Positions 24,730 to 56,812 of a DNA stretch of 64,000 nucleotides are shown piece after piece. The stretch spans positions 62,001-126,000 of the forward strand of contig VKHL01000059.1 of NCBI GenBank assembly GCA_015146655.1, read 5' to 3'. Position 1 is the stretch's first letter, and each line of letters begins with the position of its first letter. The DNA is from Ochromonas danica (taxonomy: Eukaryota > Sar > Chrysophyceae > Chromulinales > Chromulinaceae). Below the pieces are notes generated by a model. That model saw only the letters and a program-made list of their open reading frames with translations, was not told where the DNA came from and did no database searches. Position numbers and translations under genes: made by a program.

Positions 24730-25137
24730 TTGTACTGAGAGATTGATTGATTGATTGTTGTTGTTGTTGACTCTGTCGACAGGCTGAGGCAGAGGCCAGG
24801 AGAAGATCGTCTCAATGACTAAATGCGCGGGAACTCCTTCTTTGTTAAGTTAACCATCTGCTCTACGTTAAGTTAAACTATCCGTTGTTAAGTTAACTAT
24901 TTGCTCTGATAGGCCAGCCTGCCAGAACGGTAGATTTGGGTTTGAATCTTCATCATTCATCCAAGGTCAATAAACGAATCTCTGGATCTTCTCTCCCAGC
25001 AGAGGCCTAAAGTCTGCTTTCTCTGGTTGCGGACACTGGGATAGGACAAGATCCAGCAGGCAGGCATGGAGCTTGGCAAGAGCACAATGAGACAGAACTA
25101 AACCTCCATAGCTTCTTAGAAGTAACTAATCAGCAAA
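24730..25137. promoter_or_regulatory. Shared upstream region, molybdenum hydroxylase and PH-protein genes
   Basis: This 408 bp divergent gap contains three copies of GTTAAGTTAA (24844, 24867 and 24887) and (TTG)n/(TGAT)n short runs next to the molybdenum hydroxylase start. No open reading frame or RNA gene was recognised. Confidence 0.45.
24844..24897. promoter_or_regulatory. Triple GTTAAGTTAA repeat
   Basis: Three copies are spaced 23 and 20 bp apart. Copies one and three are followed by AC, and the sequence between them includes CATCTGCTCT, echoed as TATTTGCTCT after copy three. The spacing of about two helical turns is compatible with a factor-binding array. The same word recurs at other gene starts in the window. 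Confidence 0.45.
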
Positions 25138-31190: not shown

Positions 31191-34100
31191 TCATGCAAGT
31201 GCTTTGGCCAGAGTGGATAACATTGAAGAAGATCGGGCTGGTAAACCAATCTCATAGTCTCCACTTCGACTAATAGAACATTTCTCTTTCAAACGTTGCA
31301 TATGATGGCGTAACCAAATGTGTCCTGGGATGATTGTGTTATCTGGATCAACAAATACAGCATCACCTTCTGCAGCCAATTTCAACCAACTATCCTTTTC
31401 CCCTTGTCTATTATTAGTGGGTGAATATACACAACCACTACCACCACCGTCAGCACGACGTGTCAAGGATAGATACTCTGTCAATATTAATAGTGAAGGA
31501 GAATCCTCCGGATAGAAACCTTCTATGGTCTTGGCAGAGCGGATAATTGCTTTCTTGCCGAAAGCAGGTCCACTAGTTGGTTGTAAATATCGACTTAGTT
31601 TCAAGTCTCGAAGGAACGCACAGAGCAGACTTGGAATCTTAAAACTAGCCGGTAGTCCAGACTTCTTCTGGTTGGAAGATAGATGCTTTGCTATCTCCAT
31701 GCGCAAGAAATTAATGATAAGCAATAGTACAACTGCCCAATGAGGTCGACAGATTACAAAGCTATCCAACTCATTGACTTTGGCAAACAAAAACCAAAAC
31801 TGTCGATATACCTCTAATGGCAAGACATTAGTGTCAGACTGAGTACAGACAGACATTGGCTTCCAAATTTTGCTGATGGAGTCATCAACCAGGAGAATAG
31901 AACGAATACAGGGTTCATCAAGACAGTAAATCATCTCACAAAGTGCTAACACCATTCTCTCCACCAATTGATTACAAAGACCATCGACATGCAACCGCTG
32001 TGCATCTACAACATCTTCTATATACTGATAAGAGAGTCTTGGTAACTTTTGAGGAGATGTTTCTGATTTGATTGGAGAAATCCATGTTTTGGGGGAAGCA
32101 AACAAAGCAGATCGATCAGGTCGAGTAGGACTACCAATAACAAAAGCAGAGTCTGCAGTCAGATTAGCTTCTATCTCAGATGCAAGGAAAAGCGGTGGAT
32201 ACGAGAGTGATGAAGCCTCGATAGCTTTCTTCTGGTTCGGTGCAACAGAGAAAGCATATCTCCTCTCTGAGTAATCAACTAGAAGACGTTCAATTATTGG
32301 GAAACTGTTCAACAATATTTGATCCATTTCCTCGTTACCATTCCCAGAAGAAGCATGATCTGCTTGCTTAGGTGACATGGAAGCAAAACTATCCGTCAGT
32401 GTGCTATGCGTTGCATTATCATCATTCTCACTATTTGAATCATTCCAGTTAGTCAACATTTCCACCTCTTGACATATAGCTGGAGTAATTCCTTTCTTGG
32501 CAGATAAGATCATATTCTTAATCGTTTGCATAAACAAGAGAATCCGCTCTTGTCGTAATGATTGCACAGGATAGTATAACGCCTTATCTAAGTATTGGTA
32601 CATTCTTTGGATTCTCTGAGTCTCAGCTTCTCTTGATGTGATTTGATTCGTACGACGGAATGCCTTCGGAAGCAGTACTTCATCCATTGTTGCATCATCA
32701 ATTTCTTTGAATTGTTGCAGATAATCCACAACATTAAACAAAACACTCTCTCCTTGAGCTTCTCGTAGAAATGTTCTGATAGTAATTAACTCATTATGCA
32801 CTATATCATATGTTTGACTGTGGATAAGATCATCTAAGCACCCGCCAAGATCATCATCACTCGTCTTGGCCAACACAAATTTCTTCATGACATGCGCAAT
32901 GCGTTGAGTCGTACGATTGGGAGGTCCACTAAGATAATCCAGCAAAGCTGAGCGCAAAGCATGAACCAATCTCGCGGACTGCAGACAATTAGCGAATTCT
33001 CTTGACCAATACAAAGCAATTCCTTTACGAGAAGCAAGTTTTCTAATCTTATCGATAACTCTGAGAGTATTTCCTAACAAACGGCAGTAAAGATCCGAAA
33101 TGGTTAGATTGCCTATGGCATCAAAAGCTGACATGCCTTTGTTCACATAGTATAGTAAGTCTTGTCGTAAATAGACTTCCAACACAAAGTTTCGTAATGC
33201 ACTGAGAGCAGTGAGAACTGATTGATGACCATAGAAAGTATAGAGAGAATGATGATCATCTTTGCTGTTTGACATAACAGTAGATTTATGATGATTGATC
33301 AGGTCCCAGTCGAACTGACATAGAACCTCCAATACTGATCTTCCCTGTTCTTGGTCAGTTTGATCTTCGGTCATGCTGATTTTGTTGTCAGAAGAGGATA
33401 TAGGAAAGGTCTCTCTTAACAGACTATCTAGCTTGCCATATGTTTCTTTTGATAGCTGCACCAATTTCCAGTCACCAGGAAGCCAATCCTGACGCCCAAC
33501 AGCTTGTAACAAATCTCTCCAAAGATCCAATGACTGTCGAAGTGAGCAAAGGAATCTTGTTTCTATCCCGTCCTCCTCAATTAATTGTATTCCCACAAGA
33601 TCCACTTCGTGATAGATTTCAGCCATCAAATCATCTACACGAGCTAATGCTCTTCCAAGATTTTCTCCGAACAATCTGAAAAACTCCTGCTCATTGCTAA
33701 TATCCACATCGCTAACCATAATACCATCCCAATCTTTATCCACCACCTTTCCATTCAAAAAATCCATCAGAGTTGCGAATTTACCAAAGCCAACGGGTAG
33801 AGGAAAATCAATCACAAAATTGTTGAAAGCACTAATCAACTGACATTCGCAAGTGGTCCATGCTAGTAAATAGCTCAGTTCTGCTTGTACTTGATCATAA
33901 ATGGTGCACGCTGAGTGATGGGAAGCATAGAGTTCCCAACGAATAGCCTCCAAAAGGTCATGAATCTCTTTCCCTTGTCGATGATGATTACCCTGTTTAT
34001 TCCATTTCAAGACAAGGCGACGTGCATAGACCAGGTTTTCGCTCCAACTCACAGCACTGGCCAAGCCAATAGAAAGGCCACCAGCCTGGTGAAGGAATGG

Positions 34101-37100
34101 TTTTATTCGGTCTATAGCTTCTTCAAGATGTTGCAATTGCAAATGTTCATGAGGGCTGAATGCATAGACAGGAAGACAGAAATGGCAAGAAGATTGAATA
34201 GCTTGTAACAGTGAAGAATGGTTTTCAATAGTTTCTTGTGCTACTTGTCGATATGCTTCTATCTCTTGACGACCATAGTCGCGATAGATTTTGTTGCCTT
34301 CTACCAATTGTTTTGCCGTATCTAACCATGTTTTCAACTCTTCCATGGCCGTTAACTCTGACAGTAGTGTATTATCATCAGAGACAGCATTTGCACAATT
34401 AAAGCGATTCAGTAGTAATCTATACTGCAAAATAGTCTGCAATGTCAACAGCACATTACTCAAAGCAGGGGAAGGATAGATAAAATTATATCTCTCTGCA
34501 ATATCAATAGCTGTTTGTAAATATTCTACAAGGTAGATATCACCTTTCAAGACAATTTTCGCAAGAGTGTGGATAATAGTTGATTCATCATCTTTGCCAC
34601 TGTTTGTCGTGATCAAACTAGACAACCTGCACAATTGCAACTCCGAAAGATGTTGTAGATTGGCATCAATTCGATGAATAGCATCCAAAGAGGACAATAT
34701 TGGCATCTGTTGGTGTCGGTGTTGATTACCATGTTTTGTATGTTCATGCTGTACATCTCCGATATTTTCCTTGGAGATAATATTTGCTTTCAGATAGCGC
34801 GCCAAAGCTAATGGAGGGTAGTCTAATGCTAGAATCATCTGAAACATCGTCTCTCGGTATTGTAAGATGCTCTCAATGGTCTCAATCTCTTGTTTGACCA
34901 CAACGATAGCATCCACTAAATCACTAACCCAATAATATTGAGAAGGTTTCAATTTGAGACTGTTGAAATCAGTATCTCCTGGAGGAGCATGTTCGGATGA
35001 GTTCATTGAATAAACCAAAGTATTTGTGCGATTCCTTCCCCCGATATCTGAGGACATGCTGCTTCTTCGTTGTTCATTCGGATTCATCAACAGACCAAGT
35101 GAGACAAAGAGTTCGTGTAGTTTGCGCTCTTCAAATTTTCGAAAGGCTTCAATGGATGCTAAGATATTGCCACGACCACTGACATCCGCATCATCTGTTT
35201 CTAGGTTCATATCAATGGGAGGTAGTAGAGGAAGCTGCTCCTGACCATCAGCAAGTACTATATCCGTACCAGCGAAGACGAGGAATGTGTGTCGCAAATG
35301 AATAACTCGCTTAGCTAACTCTATCACAGAAAGAATGGAAGAATCTTGAAATCCACCACTTTGCAATGCTGCAACAACTTCCATGATATGAGAATATAAG
35401 ACATTCTTGATCTTTATATCATGAACCGCTCCATCTTGTACTCGAATATTACCTTTTGTTAATGACTCAGCTACTGTTTCTAAACAACGCTGATAACACA
35501 AGCCTTCTCTGACAGCATTTACTTCTTCCAAGGCGACAGGTGGTAGATTCATAGGTCGCTGGACTAACTGAACAACAGCTTCCCAACGATTGTTGACAAT
35601 TGCTTCACGAAGCTCCAATATTACTTTGGCTGCGTTAAGAAAATAAACAGTGGAATCTGACTTGACGCTAACACGACTGGCCACAGCGACAGCTCGTTTT
35701 AGAGCATAAATGCTATTTTGCACCACACCAACAAAGAATTGCGACGATGTATTGTTTGGATTGTGTTGTCCGTTAACAGCACTTGAGGAATCCCCAACTG
35801 AGCCACCTTGCTCATTCGCCGCGTCAACAAGATAAAGGCTCTCGAATTGTGCCATCATATCAGCAATTCCTTGGCTGACTCGGCGGCTGTGGAAGATACT
35901 ATTGCGGACTGGCTCTCCATTCAAGTCTGAATGCTGACCGAAGCTGACCGTCGATCGTCGTCGTCTTACCAATCCAGTGTTTTGATTGTTATTAGCGCTA
36001 ATAAAGCTCCTTCTTCCTGATCCAAGAATCGGTGTTTGTACCATTGAAGGAGAATGTGATGTTGGAGTTAGCTCCTCTCGATACTTTGCCATGACCATAT
36101 CCATGGCAGCAGAATCTGTCGCCCCAACAGCTGCGCCTTCATCACTGCTGACACTTTTCATCTTGGCAATAGCAATGACATCTAAATACCTTCCGGTCTT
36201 CAATCCATAAGCAATCAACTTCCCTGCATCATAATTTTCCATCTCAACTCGCAATCGTTTTATTTCCTCCTTAACCAATTCGTTATCTTTCAAAATATGT
36301 TCATGAGTGATGGCAATTTTCATCGCTTGAGAAAGATCGCCTTCTTTCAAAGCTTTGCGAAGCTCAATAACAGTATGTGCTAACTTCATGAATGATTGGT
36401 TCTCATCTGTTCCCATAATTTCCAAGGAAGGCAAGGCTGCATCATAAGCTGTAATCATAGCTCTCAGATCAATTTTATCATAAGGAATCATGCCAATCGG
36501 ATAGTCTAAATACTTCTGACCATGAACGATCTCATATCTAATTTTCTCCAAAAGTACAGGGAAATCCAAAACATTAGACATCTTCGAGATTTCAAAGATC
36601 AATAATCCAACATAGCTTGTCAACCCTTTCTTATGATCACGTTTCTTAACTTTAGCTACCTGGTCGATAATCATTTGTGGGGATTTGTTAGGTTCATCAC
36701 GCACAAATCGTCTCAATTGCAAGCCCAGATATAATGCTTCAATCAAACGATCAAATTCAGCACTTGGGAATTGCAAGACGGCATTCTTTGAAAATTCTAG
36801 CAATGACTCGATCTTATAGATGCGTTCATGCAAATCAACTGATTCTAGAATACTCCCATCCAAGACAACACTGGCTCGCCTCGTGAGCAACTCTTCTTTT
36901 CGCATTTCCTCCGAGAATTCACATAAAACAATATTAAAGAGGGCATCATATTTTAACAATTTTAATTCCTCCCACACTTTAGCAGTAATTGGTTCCAGAT
37001 AGTCATCATCCAGCTCAGAAACTGGACGCAATACTGCTTTTTTCATCTTGGGCATTCCAGGAAATGGCATAAGGAGACTTGCTGAGGTTGTTCTGCTTTG

Positions 37101-40100
37101 ACTACTGATCTTTTGTTGTTGTATGTATTGGGTACGACTTTGGAAAACCAAGGCATTGTGATCTTCCGCTAAACTGACAATCTCATTCAGTTGGATGAAA
37201 TCATTGTTCAAGCGACACTTTCTGGCATCTAGCAAGAGTTTTGCATCTCTCAGCAGACCTTTGCATTGACTATGTGTAGCAATGAAGTTAAAGAAGCTTG
37301 CATAAATTAGCGCTTCTTCTAGCAAACCAATATCAATACTATTATCCTCCACAGATCCTGGTGTGCCTTTATACCCAGCAGAATGGATACCGATGAAGAC
37401 TTTCGCAATAATCTGTCTGAATAAAACCTCGTTCCGAGCAAGTTTGAGTTCATCTAAGATGATACAACTAATCGAATCAGCAGTTGAAGCATCAACCGGT
37501 TCGCTAGCATTAATCTCATTAGTTGCATCAACTGGTAAATTCTCATTATTTTCAAGACTAAGGAGATGCTCATCTGTGTAAGAATCTCCAATCTTATCCT
37601 CATCATTATCTGTTGTTTCTCCAGTTTCTGACATTGCCCCAACATCTTCAAGATAGCTTTCATCATGATCTTCCTCCTCTTCCTGCTGTGATATCTCTCC
37701 ATCATGGCTACTATCCTCTTCCATGCTTTCACTAATAGGCTCCACTTTTAACGAAGTGATTGTATTTTGATTTTGTATTTTCTTTGTCTTATGATCATAA
37801 ATGTTTCTGACAATATTATCAAAGTCCTCCAGAATATTCTCAACATATTCATTATCTTTGAAAGGCGATGTGATAAACTTCATCATCCATTCTGAACTGG
37901 TGAATTGATTAGATTGATCATCAACACTAACGAGAGAGTTAGAGACTTCCTCGTTGATTTCTCTTCCTGTATTGGGTGCTCGGTCGAGATAGTCTTGATA
38001 GGCACTGGGACCCATCTCAAGTATATCTAACGAGGTCAAAGCATTCACAGCGCTTGCTTCTTTCTGTTTATCTTCTTTCACATTAAAGTGAATCCATCGA
38101 TTGAGTAATTGCGCTTTCCTAATTCGATAAATGAGTTCAGCTGATCTCCGCAAGATTGAAATGTGCCCATGACTGATACCCACAGTGTCATGCAAGGCAA
38201 AAGCCTCTTCCAATGGAATTAAACTGAGCTCATCATGAGAAAGATGACCAAAGTCGCCCAATATACGACTGGAGGTCAATGCCACTTCAAATGCGTTCGT
38301 AACAATAGCATATGCAGCATGAACATTAGCTAATTGCACTTCTTCCAGACATGCCTCAGCTAATTTAATGGAATTGCTCTTCAAATTCTCCAATATAAAC
38401 GAAGTGAGATCATACAAGGTTTGATAATTTTCTTCCTTGAATAATGTTCGAATATTGAGAATAGATTCACAACTATTTTCCAGCATCTTCACCGTGTCGT
38501 CTTTCCATTCCTTACGAATGAATTTATATAACGCAAATGCTTCCTGTGGAAGAGTTCTGTCGACTAGTTCTGGGTTATAAATATAGTCAATCTTCCCTTG
38601 AATCACACCTTCAGAGAAAGCATGATTTGTCTTTTCAATTGCTTGCGTTAGGCTAGAAACACGCCAAGAATCCAGCAGTTCCTTTTGATTGGATGCCACG
38701 TCGGGAAAGTCGTTGCTTTCCTCATTGAATAGCGCCATGACGGTCTCGATAACTTCCATGAACTTTCTTTCTTGCAATTTCTTTCTAATGGATAAGATGA
38801 TTGTTGCTGTTTTGTGTAGTTGGATAGCTTTCGAACATGTTGGGATGATAGTCTCACATATCTCACATACTTGAAGCAGGTCATCTGTTTCTATTCCAGT
38901 CAAATCAAAAGGATACGTTTCTTCTGTTGGACAACCTTGAGATGAAAGAGCAAATTCTAATTGTAAGATTAATCTCTTTTGTTCTAAATCAGCTTCTGCA
39001 AGAGCAATTTCACCGCGGGTAATAGCCACAAAGATCTTTTGTTTGGACTTCTTGGAAGAGGAAGAGATATTGGAGATATTAGGACTATTCTGAGGGGAAG
39101 GGGTTTCCCCATCAACTTCTCCACTCAGATTTTCCAATTCTTTGGCTTCTTGTACAATTTCTAATCCAATCTCAATCAGCTGGATATCATTCTCTAATTG
39201 TCCTTTACGAATGGAAAAGATTGAACGTGTCATTCTGTCTAATAGCTTGCATTCATTTGACAACTCAGAAATATGACTATCAGTCAAAATTTGAGCCAAT
39301 TGACCAATCAGATCAACATTGATTACATTTGTCGTTAGTTCACCTGGTTGACCAGAAGCAGGCTTATCTTTCATGGCCAGCAAATACTGTTTATACATCA
39401 ATTCAAAGAGGAAATGACGTTTGATGAAGATGATAGTCTCCTTCATCTCACGTCGATATCGTGGCAATTCAGTCAAAGCAGCATGTCCCAAATTATGAGT
39501 GAACTTCGCTAAAACTGTATTGGCAGGGTTGTAGACATCATCGACTTGGGATGAAGGATTTAATAAGTGGAAGACAGTCTTCATGCTTACTGACCAATCT
39601 TTGGGCTGATTCTTTGATTGGTCTTCACTAATAACATGTGCTTGACTGACAAAATCATTTCTTGTCTTGCTGAACTTTCTCTGATAGTCTTCTTCCTGTA
39701 AAATGAGAATTTCTTCCATTGACAGTACTTGACTTGTCGATACACTTTCAGGAGGTGCAGGTTGACTGATTAATTGTAAGACCATATCTTGTTTGTATTT
39801 ATCTAAATAATCCAACAAATAGAGCAGTTGCTCAAAGCTATGAAGATCATGCTCTTTCTGTGCTTTACAGAATTTTAGCAAAATCTTTGCAGTTAAATAG
39901 GATTGTTTTAATGGTAGACAAGATTGGATATATCCCTTATGCATTTCAAAGAAGTCAATCAGTAAGTTGAGCAGTTCGACAGTATCTGATGAAATTGTCA
40001 ATTCCCCAGGTGACCCACCAATTCGAACCAATCGGAAGGTGTAAGATGCAAGATATTCCAATTGGACTACTTTAATCTCTTCTCTGATTTTGTTAATTTC

Positions 40101-43100
40101 TCTTTGTAGATGTTGTTTTAAATAGGTTTCAATGCATTGCGATCTTTGAATGACATTCGTGAAATTAACTAAACAAGCATAGACTGACTCTTGGTGGTTA
40201 ACATATGACAAAGGTTGATCATCTTGCTTATTGACATGAGGATAAGAGAAATGAATATCGTCACCAAGATGTCGAGCAATGGTAAGGATTGGATTGTTAT
40301 CTGTCAGATCACTCAGATTGATAAACCTTCCCTTTTTGATTGCAAAGAGAAGATCAATTAGTCTCTGTGCTATCTCACTCAATTCCTCGAAGATCTTAAA
40401 CTTGGGTAATGGCGTTCCACTACCATCTACCACACTTCTCATAAATCGTTCAAGATGACCGCCTAAATTCTTACAAACATCAAGTGCATTTTCATGGAGA
40501 CTCCAAGTAGGATGAGACGGTAATATACACAAAAGAAGATAATACTCCAAAGCACGCTGTGCGTTGATAATATTAATATGAATATGGAAATAATCAACAT
40601 CTCTAGTATAGATATTAAATCCTTCGATAGGTTCGATTGACTTGGTGAGATTCAATGCTTGATGCCATCTCTTCTGCGTGATCAGATCACGAAAAGTGAT
40701 CAGCTTGATAACATAATCTTTTAACTTATTGCCTTTCATTGTCAGGAAGGATAGATTGGTAATGATCTCAGTTAGTTTCTGTGCGAAATAATGATAACTT
40801 GATGCTTCATCGCCAGTGTCAGAATTGGGCGCGACTAACAATGGGATGGCATCTATTCGCTTCACTTTGAATTGAATCCTTCCATCTTCATCTTCAAATA
40901 AAATGATATTCTCACTCTTTGAAATACGACATAGCAAGCGAATGCGTACATGCTCAATACAACAACTTCGTAAAATGGCGAGTGTAGATTCTAAGATGAG
41001 AGGTGGGAAGGCATGCTTCTGAAAACCTGCTTTACGCTCTAGATGATACTTAAAATCAGAATAGACTTTTATGAAATAATAGACTGCGGGAAGTATTCTA
41101 TCGAAAGAAGTGGTGCCTGGATGAAGTGTAACCTCATTCCCACTGCTACCACCTGTATTACACACAGAAGCAGCAGATTTCAATAACTTCATCATTGCTG
41201 TTGCAATTAGATTTAAACCATGGCACCAATTCTCATTAGGTTTTGCAAATGAGAACTTCTCTTTGGTGCCTTGATTCACAGCTAATTCTAACGCATTGTA
41301 CATTGTTGACATGGTCAGACCTTGTTTAGTCAATTGTAAGTACTCTCCATCCAAGATATGATGTAAAGCATGACTCACTGCGTTCATTGTATAATGTTGC
41401 AATAATAGTTTGCTCTCATTGATGACAAAGTCCTTTAACTGAGGATCCAGACACTTGTTCATAACTTCATAATCTACAATACTCTGCACTTGATTTGTTA
41501 AGAACTTAATTTGATCGACAATTTTGTCATCAAATGTCGTTGGCCAATTGAGGGAACTAATCTTCTCAACTGTTTGTTCAGCTGCTGTAATGCTAGCTTC
41601 AACAAATGACTGAATCTCAACAGAATTTAAGCTAGCAATAGATCGTGATCGTTCACGTACAGGAGTGTTTCCCTTAACTTGCATACCAGACACCAGTATA
41701 CGTATCTTCATCGCCACTTCACACAATTCGATTAATTGTGTGGTAAACTTTGATTTGATTCGCAAGGCTGTAGCTAGCATTATGACACGATTCAAAGGCC
41801 TGGGGTCCACCTCATGAGCTAAGATGGCACCTCTCGCACCTCGTATCGCGCCAGTTAATAATGCTTCTTTAGCTTGAATTTGCCAATAAGCATCACACGC
41901 TTCGGCTGTCAATAACTTGAACTCCATTTCGGCTATTTGCATCACCTTGCGATCCTTGGCATCGAATAAGGTTTTCAATATGGTATCAACATTTCCTTCA
42001 TTGATCTGTAGATATTTCTTGATGACATCAATGGCTTCTAAAATGAATCGATTCTTGACGTTCTTACGAAGATGATAAATCACTTCGAGCATGTTCAACA
42101 GAGTCGTACAACTACTGACACGTACATTGACTTGATAGACACGCTCTAATGTATTCCATGCATAATCTACAGATTCATCAGAGATGATAATATTGCCTAC
42201 TTTCCCTTGTGATGGATAATTTGTCAGCGCCTTTTCTATCTCTATCGAAGAGACTTTGTCTTCTACGAGTTCTGTTTCGTAGTGCAATGCATTAGTCAAG
42301 ACAGGATGAAGTTCAAGACGATTTGCAGCACGCAACAGCTGTTGAATGGAATGATCTGCATTATCTACATGCTTGATTAAACTTGCCATATGAGGTGTTT
42401 TAGAGTTATTCAAGTCCAGTTTCCAATCGCGTTCAAATTCATCATAATTCTCCTTTACCTTTGCACGATAGAAATGCAACAGGAATATTGCCGAGTGATA
42501 GAGAATATCAAAGATGTGACCCGGTTTTATTCCAGTCTTTCTATCGTGGTTGGCATTATTACTGTTACCGCTGTGCATCTTCTGCTTATGATGGAAATTG
42601 GCGATAATGCGCGAAAGATCAGAGACTAGCATGGAATGTTTGACACTTCCACCTGTCAGCATCATTCGAGCATTGCGAAGCAAAGGCAAGACCTGCACGA
42701 GGAATTCCTGCTCCATAACACTTTCAACCACCAACTCTACCTCTACCAAGTGATAAGGCAGCTCTAGGGCGTATTTAACCTTTTTCACAGCTCGTTCAAA
42801 TCCTGGGTAATGACGCATATGATGGTCAATTGAGGCCGTCAAATCTTCAATATTTCGCATAGCTTGTTGGATTGCATTGGGTATAAATTCTTCATCATTG
42901 ACAATCAATCTCATGGCAGTGCTTGGATGAAGAAGATCATTCATTAGTTGCTGTTGTGTTGTTTGGGAGAACGATGTGGGCGATTTAAAGGATTGATGGA
43001 TGGCTAAAGCTTGTTGACGAATATCAACCAACTCTTGTGCAGCACTGGAGAATGTTTGAACCATTTTATCAATTTCACCTGATTCTGCTTCCATGACACG

Positions 43101-46100
43101 AATCTTCTTTATTGCTTGCTCCAACAAATCACTTCGTGCATCTCTAAAATGCAAAGCCAATGGAGAACCTGTAATCATGCCCGCCGAATACGCACGCCTG
43201 AAACCTTGAAGCAATAATTTACGATCCCATTCGCGACTAACTAAAGCAAATTCCTTCACCAACACTTGAGGTGGTACACCTCGGGCCGGTGTGCGAAAGA
43301 ATTTCAATGCTTGCTGATATTCCATTAAACAGCGTTTGACTGTGACGATTGTGCGATCAAGTGACGATTTCCGCCCAGCTGACTCGCTTAGTTCCCATTC
43401 ATTGGCAGCCAAAGCTTTGCGTAAATTAATAGAGAGCTCCAGGTAGAAGAACAAACGATCCAATCGATCAGACCGTGTTTTCAACTTCCTGGCACTATCC
43501 AAACGTTCTATAATATGTTCATACTGTAGTCTGGATAAACTAAACTTTCCACTCTCAAAATAAGGACCACCGAACGAGACAGCTTTTGAAAGCTCCACAA
43601 AGGCTGTGAGGTCATACAAACGATTTAAAATCAATCGTAACTCCTCGCAAGCATAACCTTCCTCAGCATTTTCTATGACACGTTCCACATCCGCAATATT
43701 TAAAACCTCGTGAAGGCGATCCTCTTCTTCATCCTTCTCATCTGCAGCACCAGTAGAGATAACATAGGTTGTATACGTTTTCACAATGACTTCCCTAATT
43801 TTGACTAATTCACGTGCAGTTTCAAACCAATTCTTCGTCCTTTTGGACCATGAAAACATGTGATGCTCAGCAAATGCCAAAGCAGACTTCAAGATATCTA
43901 ACCGAATCAAACGATGATTTAAATGGTCAACTGAACCATGGCATTTCCCCATACCAGCACCAATCAGTAAACAAATTTGACAACGTCGATCTGAGGAAAG
44001 TTGCTGGATAGTTTCAATTTCCACTTTGCAGATGGTTGGTATAGAGATAGTGGTTAGCCATGACAAGATCTCCAGTACTGATAAGCTCAGCAATTCCATG
44101 GAACGTATTCGGTCTTCCACTTGATGTAGAGGGAACTGTGCTTCTTGTAAGTTTGCCACCAATCGATCGAGTGACTTAAGATCTTTGATTCCTTTCGTTT
44201 TGCTTTCCTTACCCTCAATTTGTAACAACTGGGCAGGTAGTTCATCAGTTGGGACATTTCCACAGAATAACAATTCCAACGGTTCCCATAGTCCATCTCT
44301 AACAACACATCTCAAGCAAAACAAAGCCTTCGCAAACAGAAACGTTTTAAATGTTTTTGCAGATAATCTCTTCACTTCCGAAGCGGCAATAATCGCGCCG
44401 AGCAGTTGGCATGCATTGCTCACTGGCAAGGGCTTCTCTTGAATCACGAGTACCTCCAACAAGGATTGATGAACATTGTAATCTTCAAATCTATCTCTCA
44501 AGGCTTGGAATTCAGCCCTGCAAACTTCATGACAATCTGAAAACTCGTCCGTCTTCTCAAAGATCTCCATGATATCTTTACCAAGTGCATCCCACTGATC
44601 ACCATAGAGATACTCTCTTAATCGAGCAATTGTTTGGCAATCATGTTGCAATAATTCCGTTTGTGCAGTACGAATCAAATTAGGTTTGTTTTCCTCCAGG
44701 CAAATCATGAATGCATCTGAGTTATACTGCACACTATCTAATGGCTCTTCCAATTGTAAAGGAATGGCACCAATCTGGAAAGCTCTAACAATAACATGTA
44801 CAGCTCGTGCATGTCTAAGCTCTGAGAGGAAAGTAGACAATTCATGCTCGATCACCATTACTGCCTTCTGAACCTCTACAGGTAACTGTTGTAAATGCTC
44901 TTTGCTATTAATTTCTTTCCACATCGAGTGGTGTTGAAGCCTCAGGATATCTGCTTCACTTTCATCAAATGCATTTGATTTAAGGTGAGTTCGAATTTGA
45001 AGTAATGCGTCTGCTATAACGAGCAATATCCTCCAATCTTTGCCTTTTACCTCAATCGACTGTGCGCCATGAAGAGCTGATTGCAATTGATCCACTTTCA
45101 TATCTTGGCCTTGCAACGAGCCTGGCTCTCCCTTCCATTGTTCATAGATAATTCCCGTGAGAACTTTGTCCATTGCCACATACATCCGCTTAAATTTGCT
45201 TGCATTAAGATAATCTGGATGTGATTTAGACACCAAACGAATGCTATTTAAAGCATCTAACAGGGTTGTCTTGTTACCCGAGGAAATGGCATTTCGCAAG
45301 AAGAGATGCTCTTTGATTGTGTCGATAAACTTCAGCAAATTGGCATCGAAATAAGTCTCGAATTCCTTTGTTTTCTCCAATTCATGAACCAAGCTTGATG
45401 AATCAATGAAGTCACGAGCATTATACATGGGAGTATCAGGAATAGCATTGAAATTGAGCAAAGAGGTGAATGTTGGCACAAGCATGGAGCTGATGGCTGC
45501 AATGTGCAGATCTCGGACCTCATCCAGGGCATTCTTGCGAATAGGAGGAGGCAAGAATAGCTGTCTTCCCTCTGCAACGTCGGTCATAGTATCTAGAACA
45601 TCCTTTTTGCCTTGTGACTGCCACCAAAGGGTAACCAAGTGCTGGATTTCAGGCCATTGTTGAGCTTTGGCTGCTGTTCGGAGATTTATGATAGCCTCAC
45701 ATGTTTGTAATAACAGATTCGCCTTCTTTGAAAGCGTGCCTAATGTAGACTTCATCTTACTACCTGTCAAAAGGACTTTTTTCAAAGGTTCAGGATCAAC
45801 TTCCACAACCACAGGGGTTACTGTCGAAGCATCAGATGATGACTTCACCGTACATCTTCCTTGAGGAAGAGCATTTTGGAAAACAGCAAGGATTTCATCA
45901 AATTGTCGAGCTGCAGCGTTGATAATTGTATTCGCATCTTTCTCAAATTCCTTGCAAAAGGAGACATCGACAACTTTTGTTGTTCGAAGTTCATTTAATG
46001 CCTCCATTGCCCCTTCCAAGAGAAGCTCATTGCGATTTTCCATGCCTTCTCGGAATTGTTTTTGTACTTTCACTTTCAATCCCAATACACGAACCTTTTC

Positions 46101-49100
46101 TTCACTTTCTGCCAGTAGCGGATTCTCTTGCCATTGTAAACGAAGAACTTTTCCCTTAAAATTGGCTTTGAAATTGATTGATTTGGCCTGCTCCATGAGA
46201 GGAAAAAGCTGGACATATCTGTCTTCATCAGACATGTTAGTTTTCGACCAAATTGAGTTCATCTGAGCTGTGCAGAAATTCTCCTTTTCCAGTGCTTCAG
46301 CGAAATCGGCTGCAATTTGTACAATTGGACTGTAGCAAACAACATGGCAAGCAGTGAAGATACGAGCTTTGACTTCTTGTAAGGTTTGAGATATTTGTTG
46401 AAGGCGTTCTAATGCTCTTTGCATGATCGCAAGCATAGCATTGTGTTCATTCGCGATAATCGAACGAACAAGCTTGCTCGCTATATATCTTCGAGTCACT
46501 CTTTGCAAGAGGATACAAGCATTTAGTAGACGATCCTGTCTGATCTCTCTTAACACACGATGTTCATTAGCTCGATAAAATGTCTTGGTGATACCAACAT
46601 AGAACTTTGTTCGATCAATTGTGGCATAGCTTTCTGCCATGAAGCGAACCAAAAGATTACAACACTCTCGAGAGACATCCGAAACAACAGCGTGCTTTCT
46701 CTCTTTTTTATCAAGAGAAACACCATGTTCTTGACAAAAGGTATCGAAGGCTGCTTTGTTATTCATCAAGAGTGATTGATCAGATCGTTTGAGGAAGGCA
46801 TCTACTAACTCATCATTAGAAAACATACGCTTTAGCCAGGAGGATTTCATCAAAACATGATACGAACAATAGAATTCATAATGTGTGAATCGAAAAGGAT
46901 ATCCATTTTGCATAATAATGACTGCTTCAAAGACACCACTGTAGGTAAGTTGTTCATTGGTGAGATGATGAACAAAGATATTAGGCTTCTTCAATTGGTT
47001 GGGTTTAATGCATCGAATGTAACGAGGTTTAGTAGCATTTAGATTGCCAACCAAGGATTCCATTTGTAGGGAAAACTTGCGTCCAACTGTTTGTTTGGTT
47101 TCATAGGAAGAGCCTCGTTTAGCAACTTTGCCTCTTGCACCAGTAGGTTCTACTACTATATTCGCCTGGATAACTCCACGAAATGATAGTGCACCTTCTT
47201 CACGTTGACGAATAATCTCTTCATCAAAGAGATCTCTTATAAATGTATGTGAAGAAAGTGAGAGGATTTCAATCAAGTCCATAGAGAGGGTATCTTTGTT
47301 CTTCACGAGGAAGAGTGATGGATCATAGTAGACTTCGCCTGCATAATGCACAATACCAAGTTCATTCGTTTTGGAACGAATTTTGACTCTTGGATGGCTG
47401 GCGTATTGTTTGGAAAACTTGCTGTAGAAGCCTTCCCAAGATCCCTTGGGTACCATACCTTCCTCATCCAGCATGGGGATGAGACCCTTGGGGCGTTTGA
47501 TGATCAGGTCCAAAACGTCTTGATTGTCTTTAAAGTCTAATTGTGGCACGGGCACATCCTCTGCAAGATAGATGTCCATCTCAGCTTGAAAGATGTTATA
47601 ATTGAAATGTTGTTGCAAAGCTTCGTTAGCTAAGTTGATACATAGTTGTTCAAATGAATTCTAATACATGAGAAGCATAAGGAATGCAAGGAAATGGTCA
47701 ATGAAGTTAAGTCATCATTCTCTAACCTTTTGAAAGATCTCAAAGCCAAAGATATCCAAGATACCAATCATCAATGCAGCTTGAGCAGAAGAATTAAACA
47801 TTAAACGATTAATAGTCGCCACAATCCAATCAAAACAGCGATTATAGATTTCTTTTGCTAGTGCATCTCGATTGTCATTGGCTGCTACTGGGGTATAAGG
47901 TGAGAAGGCGATGGACACTCTTCTGGCATTACCTGATTTAATCTTCTTAAACAGCAACGCTTTGCGGAAAAAGTCGATATCAGCACCAAACATAGAAGCA
48001 CATCTTTCAAAGTACTTCTCTGTCTGCGGATCGATATTAGATTCATCACCTTCAGGTATAAATGCAATGTTTCCCAAGTGCAGTATACCTGCAATAGTGC
48101 GATAGAGAGCATCTTGTTCTTCCATGGTAAAACCAACATCTGCAAATGCTTCATTGACCACCCGATAGTCATCAGCATCGTCTACATCATCAATAGCGAT
48201 GCAGCCACTTTGGTTAATATAGTTGAAAAGTGATAAATTCGGTCTAGTGGATAAGCCATTTTCTTGCAATCCATATTGCTGTAAGAGATCCACTGGAGCT
48301 CCTTGTAATAGTTGATAAAACACGTGATAGTTGCGTTCATCTTTTGATTGAAAGACCACACGCGACTTCTCGAGGATATAAGTCGTGTTGGACGAGCCCA
48401 CAATTGTGGAACTTCCATCAAACCAAATCTCAATATACTTACCAAAGCGAGAGGAGTTGTTATTACGTAATGTCTTGGCATTACCCCATGCTTCTAATAT
48501 TGGACTGGCATTGAGAATCTTGGATTGGATGCCGCTGGAGGAGCCAGCAATATAGGCCAGATAGTTGAGTGCTTGCTTGGTGGCTTCCGTCTTACCAGCA
48601 CCTGATTCACCACTGCACTCAAGAGGAGAGATAAAGACCGAGAAGAAGGAAGAGCAGTAGAAGGAGAGCGTACCTGATGATGAGGCTTTGGTCCTTGCCG
48701 TACGACAAATCGGAAAACGCGTCATGAGCCACAGCAAAAACATGAGGCTGTTCCGACAAGTTATAGAGATTACTCTTATACTTCTCCTTGACATGTTCAT
48801 CATAAATCCCAGCAATCCATTTGAAAGGGTTCAAAGCTACAAGGATGGGACCAATGGACGTGTAGATCTTGTCTCGATGGAAACGAGATCTCAATGTATG
48901 CAGAATACCCGGTCGATGGACATGTTGCAACTTAATAAGATCGTCTGGAGGATGTTCAAGCTCTTGTAATGAGCCTGCAGGGATGCACAAATCGCGTGCG
49001 ATCTGATAGGATCGTTTTGTTGTCGCGCCGCTGTTGCCACTGCTTTCCACATCCACTACTGTCAAACTTTGATCTTTGTTTCGACTTGCTAGATGAACTA

Positions 49101-49158
49101 GCTTAAAGACGGTCTCATTATCTGGTAAAAAGAAGTATTCACACTCATCTATATCCAT
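31191..49158 (-). CDS. Giant myosin with a 5,100-residue helical-repeat tail
   Basis: Three exons (49158-48674, 48612-47727, 47660-31191) encode about 5,946 aa, and the last exon alone is 16,470 bp without a stop. The motor domain fills residues 1 to about 830. It has P-loop GESGAGKTEATKQ, switch I NNNSSRFGKYIEIWF, switch II LDIFGFEIFQ with NSFEQLCINLANEALQQHFN, and actin-interface TKPRYIRCIKPNQLKKPNIF. The converter end YVGITKTFYRA leads to one IQ-like site at about 835-859 (ACILLQRVTRRYIASKLVRS). The rest is a predicted-helical tail in which a core motif (hxxhxLRxAlxxxxWxxhxxL) recurs at least 12-15 times at roughly 200-350 aa spacing. An acidic linker lies at about 37495-37740. No FERM, MyTH4, PX or kinase domain was noticed. 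Known myosins are generally far shorter, so class assignment is open. Confidence 0.9.
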
Positions 49159-49447: not shown

Positions 49448-52400
49448 ATGGCCACTAACAACGAATTGACTAGCAATGATCTCATTTCCAGTTTATGGAG
49501 TGGATCCTCCATTGACAAATGTCGAATAGGCCTATGTGATGCTATCTTATATGAAGCTGGTCTGCCAGTGCGATGGTATGTCACAGGTGGGGCAGGAGAA
49601 GTGAAACTCAAACGAAATGTCGACTTGTCCGCCATTTCCCGCCGTTGGTTAGCCATTGCAGAACAATCTGAATCTTCTTTTGTAGCAGCAATAAGACAAG
49701 AAGGATTAGTGAAATTTCTTAGTCGGACAGCCTGGGAAGCCTTTGTGGAAGAAGGCAAAGTGGCCGACCCGGCGCTGTTGTCCGTGCATTGCTTTCTCGG
49801 ACGAGGCACCAACCCCATTATCTATCGTAACTCTTACTCCATGAATCTTACTACAGGAAGATGGAAAACAAATACATTGTCTTATACGGTAGTCAAGGAT
49901 GAGATCATGTCTATTATCTATGAGGAGAAGTTGAAATTTGTTGATAATCGTGCAGCACAAATTGCAAAAGTTTTAGATTTAGCCTCAACGACAGTAATAC
50001 GATATGTAGAGAAGATGCTTCGTATTCAAATAGTAGAATGTAGTTTAGACTTTGTGATTGATCGTAAGTCTCAAATTTGGATGTTATGGGCAAACAAAAC
50101 GTTTTTTAAGAAATCTGCCGCTACTGGAGAAAGTATTTCCAGACCTTTATCATCAACTAATCGACTATCAGAGAGTATTGATCCTTTTTCTGAAACATAT
50201 GATGAAGATATGATACATAGGAAAGATGAAAATACAGGTCATCTTCTTTCTCAACAATTAGAAGAAATGGCAAATCATGATATTTTGAAACGAAATCCAA
50301 ATGCGGAGAAAATTCATTCTGCTAACACTTTGAATAACTTTATAGTAAATGAGAAAATAGAGAAGAATAAGAATAACAGCAACAAGAGAACAACTTCTTT
50401 CCCAACACCTTTCAAATGTATTGGAGATTATTGTCATCTTCTCGTCCAGCCTGTGGGGGCATTAACTGTTGACAAGAAAACTGCAGCAATGCATTTAGCA
50501 AGTAAACTCTTTACAGAGAAGGAGATTGAAACATTGAAGAAAGATCCAAATTATTCGAAGATGATGGACTTTTCTTCTTCTGCATTAGGAGAATCATCTG
50601 CTGATGGTTTGTTAGAGATTAACAAGAGATCTGTGGAATTGGCTCGTACAGAACGAAGAGGATTAGAACAGTCTGCCTTTAGTGATATCTCCTTCTCAAG
50701 CATTCCTGGACAGGCGATTGGATCTGCTGCTTCTGCTGGAGGAGGAGAGAATGGCGGTGGAAGCAAGAAACATCGATACATGGTGAGATCAAACTTGATT
50801 GCCAGCTTTCTATTTTCTTACCATTTGCTATATGTTTGTTTTGATGATAGGATTCGATTCAATCTACACCTAATGCTCCGATTAGAATGGAAGGCTTTCC
50901 CTCCAATATGAACACATATTATGAACCTGTACGCGTCTGTCCCACTTGTTATGATGCTTATCGTTGTCTCGATTGGGCTCGTGGTATATTGAAAAGAGCA
51001 GAATTATCCAGTAGAAACAATAGCCTTAGCCCCAATCGCGTTATAACGAGAACGAATACAGATAAATCCTTTCTAAGCGCTTCCCCCAACAAACAATCGC
51101 CTATCAAGCCTGCTACCACAGGAGGTCTTCAGGAAGAAAGCAAACAGTCCTTGGAGAGCATATCATTCAAGTCAACACAGTCTACAGAAGAAGGAAAACG
51201 TCAATCGAGACGAGGTGGACGAGAGAAGTTAGGCAGATCGTGGAAATCTCAAATAACTGATGAAAATGTGGTTGGCGAGGGGACATCATCGCACAGAAGA
51301 CGTAATGACTTGGCCATGCTTGATAACTATATTCGAGGGAAGCCATCTTCACCTTCTTATATTTCTCGCGAGAACTCCTCACAATCTCCTCAAAAGGGAA
51401 AATCTTCGTCTTCCAAACCAAGACGACAACGAAACTCATCTGAAGAAAGGGCCGCCACCACCACCACTGCTACTGCTGCTAACGAGAGTATCATCACAAG
51501 ATCAAAACTTCCTCAAAGCAATGTATACAAAGGGAAGGTCCTTCTTGCTAGTGCAGATTCAGAACAAGTCAAACGAGTGATAGCTATTCTACAAGAGAAT
51601 TTCTTTGAAGTACGTCATGTTATTGATGGTCGAGAAGCATTAAATATCATTTCTTTAGAATGGAAGAAGATTGATTGTGCTTTGATTGATCGAGATCAAT
51701 TACCTTTATTAGATGTCTTTGAAGTGTGTAAAGGTATTCGTTTACATGAGAAGACTTTACGAAAAACATACAGTCTACAATCACAAAAGGATCCCATCTA
51801 TACTGACAGATTTCTAAACTTTCGCTTGCCAGTAATTTGTTTCACTTCTGCTACAACAGCTGGAGATTTAAGCAGTTATATGGCAGGAGATTTGGATGGT
51901 TGTGTTTCCAAACCAGTCGATCCAACTTCTCTCTTGACGACCATTCGTGCTGCTATTCCTCAGCATTTGGCTCCTCTTCCACCGCCCACATCAGATGAAT
52001 CGATGGCCCTTAAAAATACCTCAAAAGTACAGAAAGTGGGACTTCTTGGTGAATTAGAGAATAGTCAAGACTCGGCGAGTATGGCATTAAAAACTTTAAG
52101 TATAATGGGCAGTAATGAAGGTTCAGAGTTTCAAGGCTTTGTTCAATTGGATGCTGACACAAAGCTACCTTACTTAGTGTTGAATGGTTCCAAGTATACA
52201 AGAGTAAGACAATCATCTACAAAGGAGAAGTTCTTCAATCTTGTTGTTTGTCATGATGTATTTGATACCTATGAACGAATGAAAATTCTATTACAACCTA
52301 TTATACAACGTTATCAAGCTATTCAAGTCTTAGTCTGGAATTATCCTGGTCAAGCACAAACAGAATGGAGATCTACTCAATCTTTAAATAATGAATATCT

Positions 52401-55400
52401 AGCAGCTTGTTTAAATGAGGTCTTAGGTCAAGTAGGTCATCTAGGAACACGAGATTTCAATACCGAAGAGCCTTTCTACCTCTTAGGCTATGGTTATGGT
52501 GCCAATATTGCTGCTTACTATATGGCTCACTATCGAGCACCGTATATTCGTGGTCTGTTATTAGCCAATGGTTGGGCTTTTGTAGACAGTTACTTGGCAG
52601 GTATTATGCATGATTGTGTGAATATCTTCCAATCTGCACCTTCTTCCAGACCTGATCTTCCAGTTTATTTCTTCTCACGCTTTCTCTTTTGTAAAGATTA
52701 TCTAGCAAAAGTGTCTGTTCCTTTAGCTTTAAATATCTACACTGCAGTCTATAACTCTATCTCTATTAATGGTCGAATTGCATTATGTAATGGAATATTG
52801 AAATCACATGATATTCGACCTTTGTTAAGATCAGTGGACTGTCCTATTGTCTGCTTACATAGCGATCAAAACAGCTTCATTCGGCCTATTCATGTTGAAC
52901 CATTTGTTTCAAATCGTGGTGGTGAAGTTCGTAGTATTTATCGTGCTTTACAAGATTTTCGAAGAACTTGTGTAGTCTGGTTACATGGTGGACATGAGAT
53001 GTTTCAAGAGAATCGTAAACAAGTTGTTCTTCTGTTAGAACAGATTCTCACAGGTTATCATGAAGTTCATGAATTAACCTTTCCTAGTGCTTCTTCAATT
53101 ATCTCCGCAACGAATGCATTAAATGCAAATGATCTAAAGACAAGTGTGAATGAAGTTTCGATGGAAGATAAATTCACTCAAAGTGTGTTGAATTTGTCTA
53201 AAAAGACTGCTAATGAGGTCCATCAGAAGACAACCAATCCTCTTAAGCCTGCCACATCACCTTCACCAATAAGGACTAAATCAGCACATGTCAATTCTCT
53301 TCAGAACAATAGTCCAAATTCATTGACTTGGGGTCCAAAGGCCAGTAGTCAGAAGGATCTCTTGGCTACCACCTCAGCAACAAGTAGTCCAGGAAAAGGA
53401 ATGTCGGTTGCCTTTGCAAATGATGAAGGAGTTCCTTCATGGCAATCTTTCTCCGAGACGTTATTACAAAAGCAACATTCTATTTTAACATTTGATGCAC
53501 AAAAGGCAAAGGATAAAGAAGGATTAAAGAAGACTAGTAATATCACTAATATCAACAATGTCCCTATGAATGATGTTCATGCTTATCCAGAAGTTAAGGA
53601 ATATATGCAATGGAGATTAAAACGAAATAAGAAACGTTTAGAAAGATTACAATTAGCTGCACAATCCATTCAATGTGCTTTCCGAGCTTTCTTAGCGCGT
53701 AAATTAGTGAAGACTATTCGTGAATTACGTGCTGCTTCATTGATTCAACGAGTCTTTCGTGGTCATATTGGTAGAAAGAAATTCTTCCAGCATGTTCGTA
53801 TGCTATGGGCAGCTATCTATATTCAAAAGATTTATCGTGGATTCATAGCAAGAAGAGATTATTTCATATTACAAGTTCGTATTGCAGCAGCAGCAAATAT
53901 ACAACGATTATTTCGTGGATGGAGAGGAAGAGAACGTGTTAAACGAATACGTGCTGAAAGAAATCATGCTGCATGTATTATTCAAGCTATGTTTCGTCGT
54001 TTTCAAGCTCGACGGGATGCTTGGCTTCGTCGACAATTTCGAAATTGTGCGACTGTCATTCAGAAGAACTTTCGCGGATTTTTGGGTCGAAAACGTGCTG
54101 CAGCAGAACGAGATAAATATATCTTTAGTAAGAGTCAGTCTCAAGGGATTGAGTTTGGTCGACAGATGTTATTAGAGCATAAGCTACATGTGACTAAATT
54201 ACAAAGTGATGTGACATTATTAAGTCAAGAGAAGGTTAGTGCAGAGGAACAGATTGAAGCATTATTAGAAGAGATTGCTTCCTTTGAAGAAGGTGTTCGT
54301 GTCTTGGAGAAAGAAATGCATCAATTATCAAAAGTTGAATCAGAAGCTGCTGCTTTTATGGATGAAGATAGTAAATTTGAATTACGAGAACAAAAGATGC
54401 GATTAGATCGTGAATTTGGTGAAATGTTAGGAAAGATTGCTAATCGTAAAGATATGTTAAATGATATTGAAAAGAAACTTGCAGCTATTGATAAGGCAAG
54501 ACAAGGTAAAGAAGAAGATCTTCGAACGTTAGAACGTAAACTAGTTGTATTATTAGAAGATCAACAAAAGGAATTGAATATGATCAAACGAAAACAAGAT
54601 GTTCGTGGTGCTTTGTTAGCAGCTTCACATGCTGAACTTAATCGTGTTACAACTGCTGCATCAAATGGCACCATGGCATCCAATGCTGGATTACCATCAT
54701 CTGCAGGAGGAAGTAGTGGTGGTGGTGGTGGTTATAATGGTGGTCCTAGTTTACAAGAGAAGAAACAAGCTGCTCAATTAATGCAAAGTACAGAGACGTT
54801 AATGAAGTTTGGCTTCATGTCAATGAGTATGACCTATTTTAGTTCTTTGAATATGATTAAGGCATTACGAACTGTTTCAGCTCAAGATACTGTCATGGCA
54901 GCTCTTGCTGATGTCCATGCACAACGAGCTGTTGGTCAGAATGGTCCATCATCATCATCTGCAATGTCCGCTGATACGATGAGTAATCTCACAGGTAATG
55001 CAGCTGATCGTGTAATGTCTCGTTTGAAAAAGGGTGAGTTACCAGGACAACAAAAGCTACAAGTTTCTTCTTGGAGTGTTGAAGATGTTGCCAAATGGTT
55101 GCAATCCTTATCATTAGGTCAATATTCAGAAGCATTTATTGACAGTGCAATTGATGGAGAGTTCCTCTATGATCTCAATGATGATGACTTAAAGAATACT
55201 TTAGGTATTGAACATCGTTTACATCGCAAGAAGATTTTGAATTGTATTCAACGACTTAAGATGGCAGAACTTCAAAATGAAAGTCGCTTGGGTAAGCTTC
55301 AACATGCTTTATTTGCTGGCCAAGGAGGTGCTGCAGGTGTTGGGAATAATGCCATGGTAAGGTCTTTCTTTCTCTTTCTCTTGCTAGTAGACAATGTTGA

Positions 55401-56099
55401 TCATATGGTATTGTTAGGGTCCATCGGGTCCTGGAGCCATGCCAGACTTGCCTGCTTCTGCGCAAATGCCCGACTTCGCCAATGTTGGCTTTCCTGATGG
55501 AAGCAGCAATCGACCAGAAGAAGACAGTCGAATCATCGAAGGTCCTCGCGTCTCCATCCAAGAACTCTTCTCTTACGTGCGACATTCCAAGCTCTCTATG
55601 CTCAAGGAAGCTATTGACTATCTACCCAATAAGCCTTTCGACAAGTCTCTTGTGCAGGTGAAGTCTATAACTCTGTTGAATGCTTAACATCTTTGTTAAC
55701 GTTCTGTCTGTGTGTGTGTTTGTGTTGGGTCAGGCTGCATTTGTTGCCGATTTCGGTACAGTTTACGTCTCTGGGTATGAACGTTTGATATTCCATATTA
55801 ACAAGGTGGATGAGTATGGCAATACCTTGTTGATCTATGCTTGTCAGAATGGCAATGCAAAGATCGCCAAGTATCTCGCCAACAAAGGCGCTAATCTCAA
55901 CCATCAGAACAAGCAAGGACAGACGGCTGCTCATTACGCCATTGCTTATCAATTCTTCGATCTATCTACGTGGCTGTTTGAGAATGGTGCTGATGACACG
56001 ATTGAGAACAAGTTCGGACTCACAGCTTATGACGGTCTCAATGCCACGGAGGATGAAGGAGGATATGGCGGTGAGGATACCCTAGCCATTGAGAACTAG
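49448..56099 (+). CDS. Multidomain scaffold: receiver-like, hydrolase-like, IQ array, SAM, ankyrin
   Basis: Exons 49448-50782, 50851-55356, 55418-55657 and 55734-56099 encode 2,148 aa. In order: an N-terminal globular region (about 1-220); Cys pairs that may bind zinc (FKCIGDYC at about 322, VCPTCYDAY at about 474); a disordered Ser-rich part; a response-regulator-like domain (about 671-814; VLLASADSEQVKRVIAIL, CALIDRDQLP, conserved SKPVD); an alpha/beta-hydrolase-like domain (about 897-1187) whose nucleophile elbow reads GYGYG, without the Ser of GxSxG; five to six IQ motifs (about 1378-1532; SIQCAFRAFLARK, IQRVFRGHIGRKKF, IQKIYRGFIARRDY); a coiled coil; a SAM domain (about 1852-1915; WSVEDVAKWLQSLSLGQYSE); and ankyrin repeats (EYGNTLLIYACQNGNAKIAK, KQGQTAAHYAIAYQ). 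Both enzyme-like domains look inactive, so I infer a calmodulin-regulated scaffold. Confidence 0.85.
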
Positions 56100-56278
56100 G
56101 GAAGCGTTAGAAAGAGAAGCGGGTAGATGTTGGACAAGATACTGTTGGTTTATGGTTTTCCTCATGTAAATAGACTCTATGATACTACTAGTAGTAGTAG
56201 ACTATACCCTTTCTTTAACGGTCATCATTGATTGAGCAATGATGAATAATACCTGTTGGTTAGGTTAGGTAAACCCAT

Positions 56279-56812
56279 CTATGACCATGGTTTGAGATCA
56301 GCATTGGCCTTGTCAAAGACTCGATCAACACTTTCTCTGCACGAGGCGAGGGACTGACCGTGTTGGGAGAATACATTGTGTGTAGCTTCTGCTGCTTTCC
56401 CACGAATACAACGATCTTTCCACACTGACCAAGTCTTAGCACATTCTGCTTCTCGTGCAGCACGTACTTCACTATAAGCTAGACCTTCAATAGTCTGCAT
56501 GTTAATCTGAGGATTGTGTAGAAAGTCATACGCATGCACAGCCTCATGGATTAACACTTCTGGGATATCCTGAGGTTGTAAACGATTGGCACAAAGTATG
56601 ATCTTGACATTTCTTTCAAGACTTAGATAAGCTCTAGCTGATCCTTCTACACCAGTGTTAGCACAGACATCACAGAGAACTTCAACATTGTTTTGTTGGT
56701 GTAAATGAAGAAGTAGATTGATGAGACGATTATCACTTCCTTTCTCATCTTGTCTTGATGCACTATTTGCTAGAGCAATCATTGTTTCTTGACATTGTTG
56801 CCAACGATTCAT
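56279..56812 (-). CDS. ATP23: Mitochondrial inner-membrane protease ATP23
   Basis: ATP23 is an intermembrane-space metalloprotease. In yeast it processes Atp6 and helps assemble the F-O ATP synthase, and it also degrades Ups1-type lipid-transfer proteins. The single-exon 177-aa product contains the zinc motif HEAVHAYD in the context IPEVLIHEAVHAYDFLHNPQ. It also has the characteristic Cys set CDVCANTGVEGSARAYL, RNVKIILCANRL, AARE-AECAKTWSVW and DRCIRGKAAEATH. Cys-rich short ATP23 proteins are imported through the MIA pathway, which fits the absence of an N-terminal presequence. Its 3' end faces that of the IQ/SAM/ankyrin gene about 180 bp away. Confidence 0.94.
   Translation of the reverse strand: MNRWQQCQETMIALANSASRQDEKGSDNRLINLLLHLHQQNNVEVLCDVCANTGVEGSARAYLSLERNVKIILCANRLQPQDIPEVLIHEAVHAYDFLHNPQINMQTIEGLAYSEVRAAREAECAKTWSVWKDRCIRGKAAEATHNVFSQHGQSLASCRESVDRVFDKANADLKPWS

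Follow-up and report, generated by a model that had tools for sequence, protein, structure and literature searches.

The Giant Myosin Gene

The subject of this analysis is a giant myosin gene of Ochromonas danica, a species that the NCBI taxonomy assigns to Chrysophyceae within Ochrophyta and Stramenopiles, located on contig VKHL01000059.1 of assembly GCA_015146655.1. The window, that is, the whole stretch of DNA analysed, comprises 64,000 nucleotides (contig positions 62,001 to 126,000), and the positions given below are those of the window unless another contig is named. The gene is confirmed as real: a single spliced protein of 5,946 residues is encoded on the minus strand from 49158 to 31191 in three exons, with no internal stop, and all features of the gene described here lie on that strand. 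Exon 1 (48674-49158) consists of 485 bases, covering codons 1-161 and part of codon 162; its start codon lies at 49158, and an in-frame TAG is found two codons upstream of the ATG. Intron 1 (48613-48673) is a GT-AG intron of 61 bp whose junction leads into the motif GESGAGKT. Exon 2 of the spliced model (47727-48612) is followed by intron 2 (47661-47726), also GT-AG and 66 bp long. Exon 3 (31191-47660) is 16,470 bp long, encodes residues 458-5946, and ends with the stop codon TGA.

A preliminary description of this DNA had proposed a myosin of about 5,946 residues lying mostly in one 16.5 kb exon, with no stop or frame change over 16,470 bp. Both points are borne out, the first by the frame together with the two GT-AG introns and the second by a stop-to-stop frame of 5,489 codons (31191-47660) that leaves the last exon open throughout. 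Codon use agrees with this frame, which ranked first of the six in 26 of 27 segments of 600 bp under a model trained on five neighbouring frames, stops being ignored.

The motor domain (PF00063) occupies approximately residues 60-745 (46797-48981, with both introns inside it) and is matched at E 7e-69 in exon 3 and at E 9e-164 in the whole-genome scan. The P-loop GESGAGKT (48588-48611, residues 163-170), switch I NNNSSRFGK (48438-48464, residues 212-220), and switch II DIFGFE (47739-47756, residues 448-453) are all intact in the spliced protein and are followed by a single IQ-like site (46467-46511, residues 841-855), just as the preliminary description had reported. Judged by its motor match and these motifs, the protein is a member of the myosin superfamily. 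The remainder, residues 861-5946 (about 5,086 residues), is referred to as the tail.

Relatives and Conservation of the Tail

The query used to find relatives was the motor's second half (residues 1-390 of exon 3), compared with proteins of 0.55-1.75 times the query length (about 3,019-9,605 residues). The search matched 88 proteins, 18 of which were grouped as one giant-myosin family (P0002-P0010, P0012-P0016, P0018, P0020, P0022, and P0088; from metagenomes, one metagenome-assembled genome, and EukProt). The family proteins measure 4,438-7,211 residues and have no precomputed MyTH4 domain, and no name among them describes a motor joined to a repeat tail. One of them, P0002, is filed under an archaeal metagenome-assembled genome (EON65_03685); because the protein is a eukaryotic-type giant myosin, the bin looks mislabelled.

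The tail itself is shared by these 18 database proteins, the nearest two over about 5,000 residues. In blastp, the alignment with the tail covers 5,030 residues for P0003 (48% identity) and 4,966 for P0002 (41%); P0088, P0005, and P0004 align over 3,370-3,988 residues at 30-32%, and the other 13 relatives over 1,567-3,700 residues at 21-24%. The main aligned pieces are collinear in all 18, apart from a few short extra pieces out of register, which are repeat-like. The relatives thus resemble the giant myosin in carrying the repeat tail in the same order and, in 17 of 18, a motor recognised by Pfam; they differ from it in a tail identity that falls from 48% to 21% and in that the motor is incomplete at its N-terminus in several of the models. 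Six peptide patterns taken from codons 1-4,156 of exon 3 were looked for in viral contigs and gave two stretches, neither of them a relative.

Conservation is uneven along the protein. In the family alignment, with three near-duplicate rows left out of the profile, mean conservation is 0.23 in the tail versus 0.56 in the motor. Island A (43092-43631, residues 1801-1980) has the highest conservation in the tail and island B (36462-37391, residues 3881-4190) is the second conserved block, followed by residues 4451-4530; over residues 3901-4200, identity with P0003 rises to 73%. Because 18 relatives share the tail in order, with conserved islands, we conclude from these alignments that the tail is old and has been kept. 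The suggestion in the preliminary description that selection maintains the tail fits this pattern.

The family also bears on the neck and on the control of the motor. The IQ-like site falls in an aligned stretch in 19 of 19 family rows, some of which depart from the IQ consensus, which is taken here in its presumed general form. A serine lies 16 residues ahead of the DALAK site in all eight rows that cover that position. Under the TEDS rule, as we take it to apply, a serine 16 residues before DALAK is a phosphorylation-type site, which suggests that heavy-chain phosphorylation at this residue would control the motor.

The locus could be read as two adjacent genes in one frame, the first encoding the motor and the second, with its start near Met 2215, the tail. 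This reading has its source in the EukProt model P0090 from Ochromonas danica, recovered by the tail search, which matches residues 2215-5946 of the giant myosin at 99.8% identity over 3,733 residues, in agreement with the species, and spans only these, without a motor. It is very improbable: no stop or frame change separates motor from tail, and 17 of the 18 relatives hold both in one predicted protein (the eighteenth, P0088, starts inside the motor), which supports the earlier claim of motor and giant tail in one gene. Moreover, a search with a shorter piece of the tail among proteins of about 966-3,075 residues, in which the best 8,000 candidates by shared words were scored, yielded only P0092 (1,435 amino acids, 33% identical) and no motor model from O. 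danica.

The Tail Repeat and Its Predicted Fold

On the evidence of profile comparisons, the tail is an array of a degenerate repeat of about 104 residues. When the family alignment profile was compared with itself, 95 off-diagonal matches exceeded 50% probability and the reversed-column control gave 0; a denser self-scan, which had no control of its own, gave 253. An iterated repeat profile of 104 positions recovered 17 units in the giant myosin by hmmsearch. By hhalign, 23 units, some of them partial, were called among the matches listed, at 61-99% probability between residues 1077 and 5431, and the reversed control did not exceed 0.2%. The repeat tail so delimited, to which both the profile comparisons and the structural models described below contribute, extends over 32739-45803. 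It is interrupted by an acidic low-complexity insert (37482-37742, approximately residues 3764-3850), where the repeat alignments bridge or break. The sequence that separates the called units, like the final ~500 residues, may consist of further units that have diverged, or it may be of another nature. An alignment of nine units made with MAFFT alone was too noisy and was set aside.

No Pfam family exceeds its cut-off in the tail portion of exon 3. By family profile, membership of the TPR, HEAT, or ARM families finds no support, as no Pfam repeat family is matched in exon 3 at E up to 0.1.

The repeat extends beyond the giant-myosin family. Among the 88 proteins matched in the motor search, 52 contain at least five units, 2 contain one or two, and 34, the myosin XV matches among them, contain none; a precomputed MyTH4 domain is present in 23 of the 52 and absent from the other 29. 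Carriers whose source names an organism include Cafeteria roenbergensis, Durusdinium, and a Bolidomonas entry. In the Ochromonas danica genome, 17 contigs carry a total of 33 motor matches. The paralog on contig C25 has a MyTH4 domain close to its end and 12 repeat units, a number that rises to 14 with a more permissive cut-off, and the paralog on contig C160 carries three weak units. A search of the same genome with 2,376 tail residues returned only two loci, the giant myosin gene and a short, interrupted piece on contig C1; it did not return the repeat-bearing paralog on C25, so distant copies would escape it. The piece on C1 (569451-569675, locus L034) resembles tail residues 2709-2781, with 55% identity over 73 residues and 75% over the best 48 positions. 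It is broken by stop codons and is apparently a relic copy.

AlphaFold2 models were obtained for residues 1280-2020 and 3190-3655, with mean predicted local distance difference test (pLDDT) values of 86 and 87. The modelled units usually have four helices each, as separate helices of 4-36 residues, and strands of at least 3 residues, forming a beta-hairpin, open 5 of the 10 units called within the models. An alpha-solenoid fold is predicted for the tail on this basis. Of the roughly 5,100 residues of helical tail in the preliminary description, the length stands (residues 861-5946), while helix content is modelled for 1,207 residues only. The tail shares a generic many-helix architecture with alpha-solenoids of the TPR, Nic96, and separase types. 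In the PDB, no confident fold match to the tail models was found, and the final 4,989 residues had no sequence match there at E up to 1.

A long helical tail could instead be a coiled coil, which would make the protein a filament-forming or dimeric myosin. The models are indeed rich in helix, and the tail contains a run of 96 residues free of proline and glycine. Such a tail is nevertheless highly unlikely: the modelled helices measure 4-36 residues with breaks between them, and the repeats of about 104 residues stand against a reversed control at zero. Pfam matching of exon 3 at E up to 0.1, with no dedicated coiled-coil predictor run, detects no coiled-coil tail, the myosin-tail profile of class II type included.

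Place among the Myosin Classes

A phylogeny of the motor against the myosin classes, another check proposed at the outset, places the giant myosin in a clade of its own, without MyTH4. In a quick tree of 72 rows it lies in a 14-row clade with support 100. That tree left out P0011 and the fragmentary P0005, P0014, P0015, P0016, and P0018, P0088 had no motor row, and 26 rows were thinned from the animal-dominated range P0054-P0085. For a careful tree of 44 rows, 28 more were dropped because they formed long branches, were short, or nearly duplicated others; among them were both class XI-like Closterium rows and the family rows P0003, P0006, P0007, P0008, P0009, P0012, P0013, and P0020. Here the giant myosin forms a clade with P0002, P0004, P0010, P0022, and P0019 at 100/100. 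P0019 lies inside this motor clade, yet its tail match covers 546 residues only, and it was kept out of the family alignment. A split with support 96/92 separates animal class XV and five paralogs from the Ochromonas danica genome (C67, class XXIX-like, and C23, class XXXI-like, with C16, C35, and C310) from the other 36 rows. The latter side holds the giant-myosin clade and the MyTH4 protist myosins, and its deep branches are weak.

The class IV label is applied here to MyTH4 protist myosins on the strength of their MyTH4/WW architecture, which we take to be typical of that class. The family tail has no MyTH4 domain, and therefore the giant myosin is not class IV by architecture: the MyTH4 profile scores 0.1% against the family tail profile, compared with 99.9% for the positives P0017 and P0034 (both part of the MyTH4 profile), and exon 3 has no Pfam match to MyTH4. 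The protein might still derive from a class-IV stramenopile myosin that has lost the domain. The repeat tail also occurs in MyTH4 myosins: P0026 from Cafeteria, P0042 from Durusdinium, and the O. danica paralog on C25 bear 13, 18, and 12 units of the same repeat at the cut-off used, and at the N-terminus of P0042 a WW match falls just short of its cut-off. In addition, the motor falls with the MyTH4 protist myosins on one side of the 96/92 split. These proteins differ, however, in having a MyTH4 domain near the end and motors in other clades, whereas the giant myosin has its own 100/100 clade and is not placed inside a MyTH4 clade by a tree whose deep branches on that side are weak and which holds no labelled Acanthamoeba class IV reference. 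Derivation by loss of MyTH4 is a possible but doubtful explanation, and the giant myosin may be close kin of class IV.

Another possibility is that the clade corresponds to a stramenopile class that already bears a number, such as 75 or 81, and whose tail the accessible text leaves undescribed. Six classes, 1, 4, 30, 31, 75, and 81, are described as common to most stramenopiles (PMC5583752). The accessible main text of that paper has no passage under "class-75" or "class-81"; the correspondence appears unlikely.

The animal myosin XV is likewise very long and has a single motor. It differs in its MyTH4-FERM tail, in the absence of repeat units from its matches, and in its separate position in the tree, and class XV membership is rejected, as neither Pfam in exon 3 nor the MyTH4 profile finds a MyTH4-FERM tail in the giant myosin. 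The stramenopile classes XXIX and XXXI also have long tails. In the 2007 survey, as far as its accessible text goes, the CBS/PB1 and IQ/PH/ankyrin architectures are those of classes XXIX and XXXI (PMC2375034). Both are present elsewhere in the Ochromonas danica genome (on C67 and C23, respectively), and exon 3 of the giant myosin has neither the CBS repeats and PB1 of the former nor the long IQ array, PH, or ankyrin of the latter, so that both classes are set aside.

In the same accessible text, the longest of 2,269 myosins is a myosin XV of 4,407 residues (PMC2375034). The statement of the preliminary description that known myosins typically have 800-3,500 residues is roughly right, but the database contains unnamed myosins as long as 7,211 residues, and the giant myosin is not the longest.

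Other Myosins of the Genome and Neighbouring Genes

Contig C51 also carries a giant myosin frame, the second one noted, with 3,476 residues (51605-62032; loci L013, L014, and L032). Over its first 2,964 residues Pfam gives no tail domain at E up to 0.001, and the frame does not match the repeat profile. On contig C45 (L021:1594-5769), a very divergent myosin motor is followed by RCC1-like repeats.

Within the window, the near neighbour of the giant myosin gene, on the opposite strand, is a frame of 1,548 codons with IQ motifs and a SAM domain (50851-55497). At 20472-24849, two overlapping frames jointly match xanthine dehydrogenase/aldehyde oxidase domains and probably represent a single gene interrupted by an intron or a frameshift.

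Interpretation and Significance

The interpretation favoured here, at a probability of roughly two in three, is that the gene represents an unclassified family of giant myosins in which a motor on a one-IQ neck is joined to a repeat tail of about 5,000 residues, the whole acting as a single-headed motor with a solenoid scaffold or tether. The protein would have a single head because no coiled-coil tail is recognised in it, and its neck would be short. The solenoid tail would be a flexible tether or scaffold. Its length would perhaps be 50-100 nm if it resembles known solenoids, whose geometry is assumed from general knowledge. Partners would dock on islands A and B, through which the motor could draw membranes or large assemblies along actin or hold them. 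Ochromonas danica is, we assume, a phagotrophic alga, and a role in prey capture or in cortical membrane traffic may be guessed from this lifestyle.

Several points weigh against this interpretation. The gene model was read from the DNA sequence alone, and the existing model P0090 begins at an internal methionine (residue 2215), without the motor. The repeat profile was trained on the giant-myosin family, which makes unit counts inside it partly circular. At the end of the tail, the final ~500 residues are weakly conserved and have no called unit. The AlphaFold2 models cover about a quarter of the tail (1,207 of ~5,086 residues), at low alignment depth (16 and 18 rows) and with predicted template modelling (pTM) scores of 0.65 and 0.73. 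Helix stacking was deduced from the secondary structure of the models and not from coordinates, and fold searches with them gave generic helical matches only. The run of 96 residues without proline or glycine and the reliance on Pfam for coiled coils count on the same side, and docking, length, and cellular role are themselves inferred.

A broader proposal is that these proteins constitute a new myosin class together with a new protein repeat: giant single-headed "solenoid myosins" from an old radiation of protists of the stramenopile, alveolate, and rhizarian (SAR) groups, in which a helical repeat of about 104 residues was amplified into tails of 3,000-6,000 residues and to which the class-IV MyTH4 myosins of SAR groups would also belong. 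The chances for and against it are judged to be even. No account of a repeat-tailed giant myosin was found in the PubMed Central literature searched, a body with few subscription papers and without supplements, including the accessible parts of PMC5583752, PMC3942036, and PMC2375034. The giant myosin is real, conserved, and, as far as that literature reaches, of an undescribed kind.

If the proposal is right, solenoid myosins would rank among the largest motor chains of the cytoskeleton apart from dynein, each chain uniting a motor with a scaffold for several partners, so that the scaffold would be built into the motor and not recruited. Because P0090, the one existing model from Ochromonas danica, lacks the motor, gene models elsewhere may hide similar proteins. 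The actin motors of ecologically important protists would have evolved a tail design that has no Pfam entry, and these myosins would be testable candidates for moving or anchoring large structures in mixotrophic flagellates.

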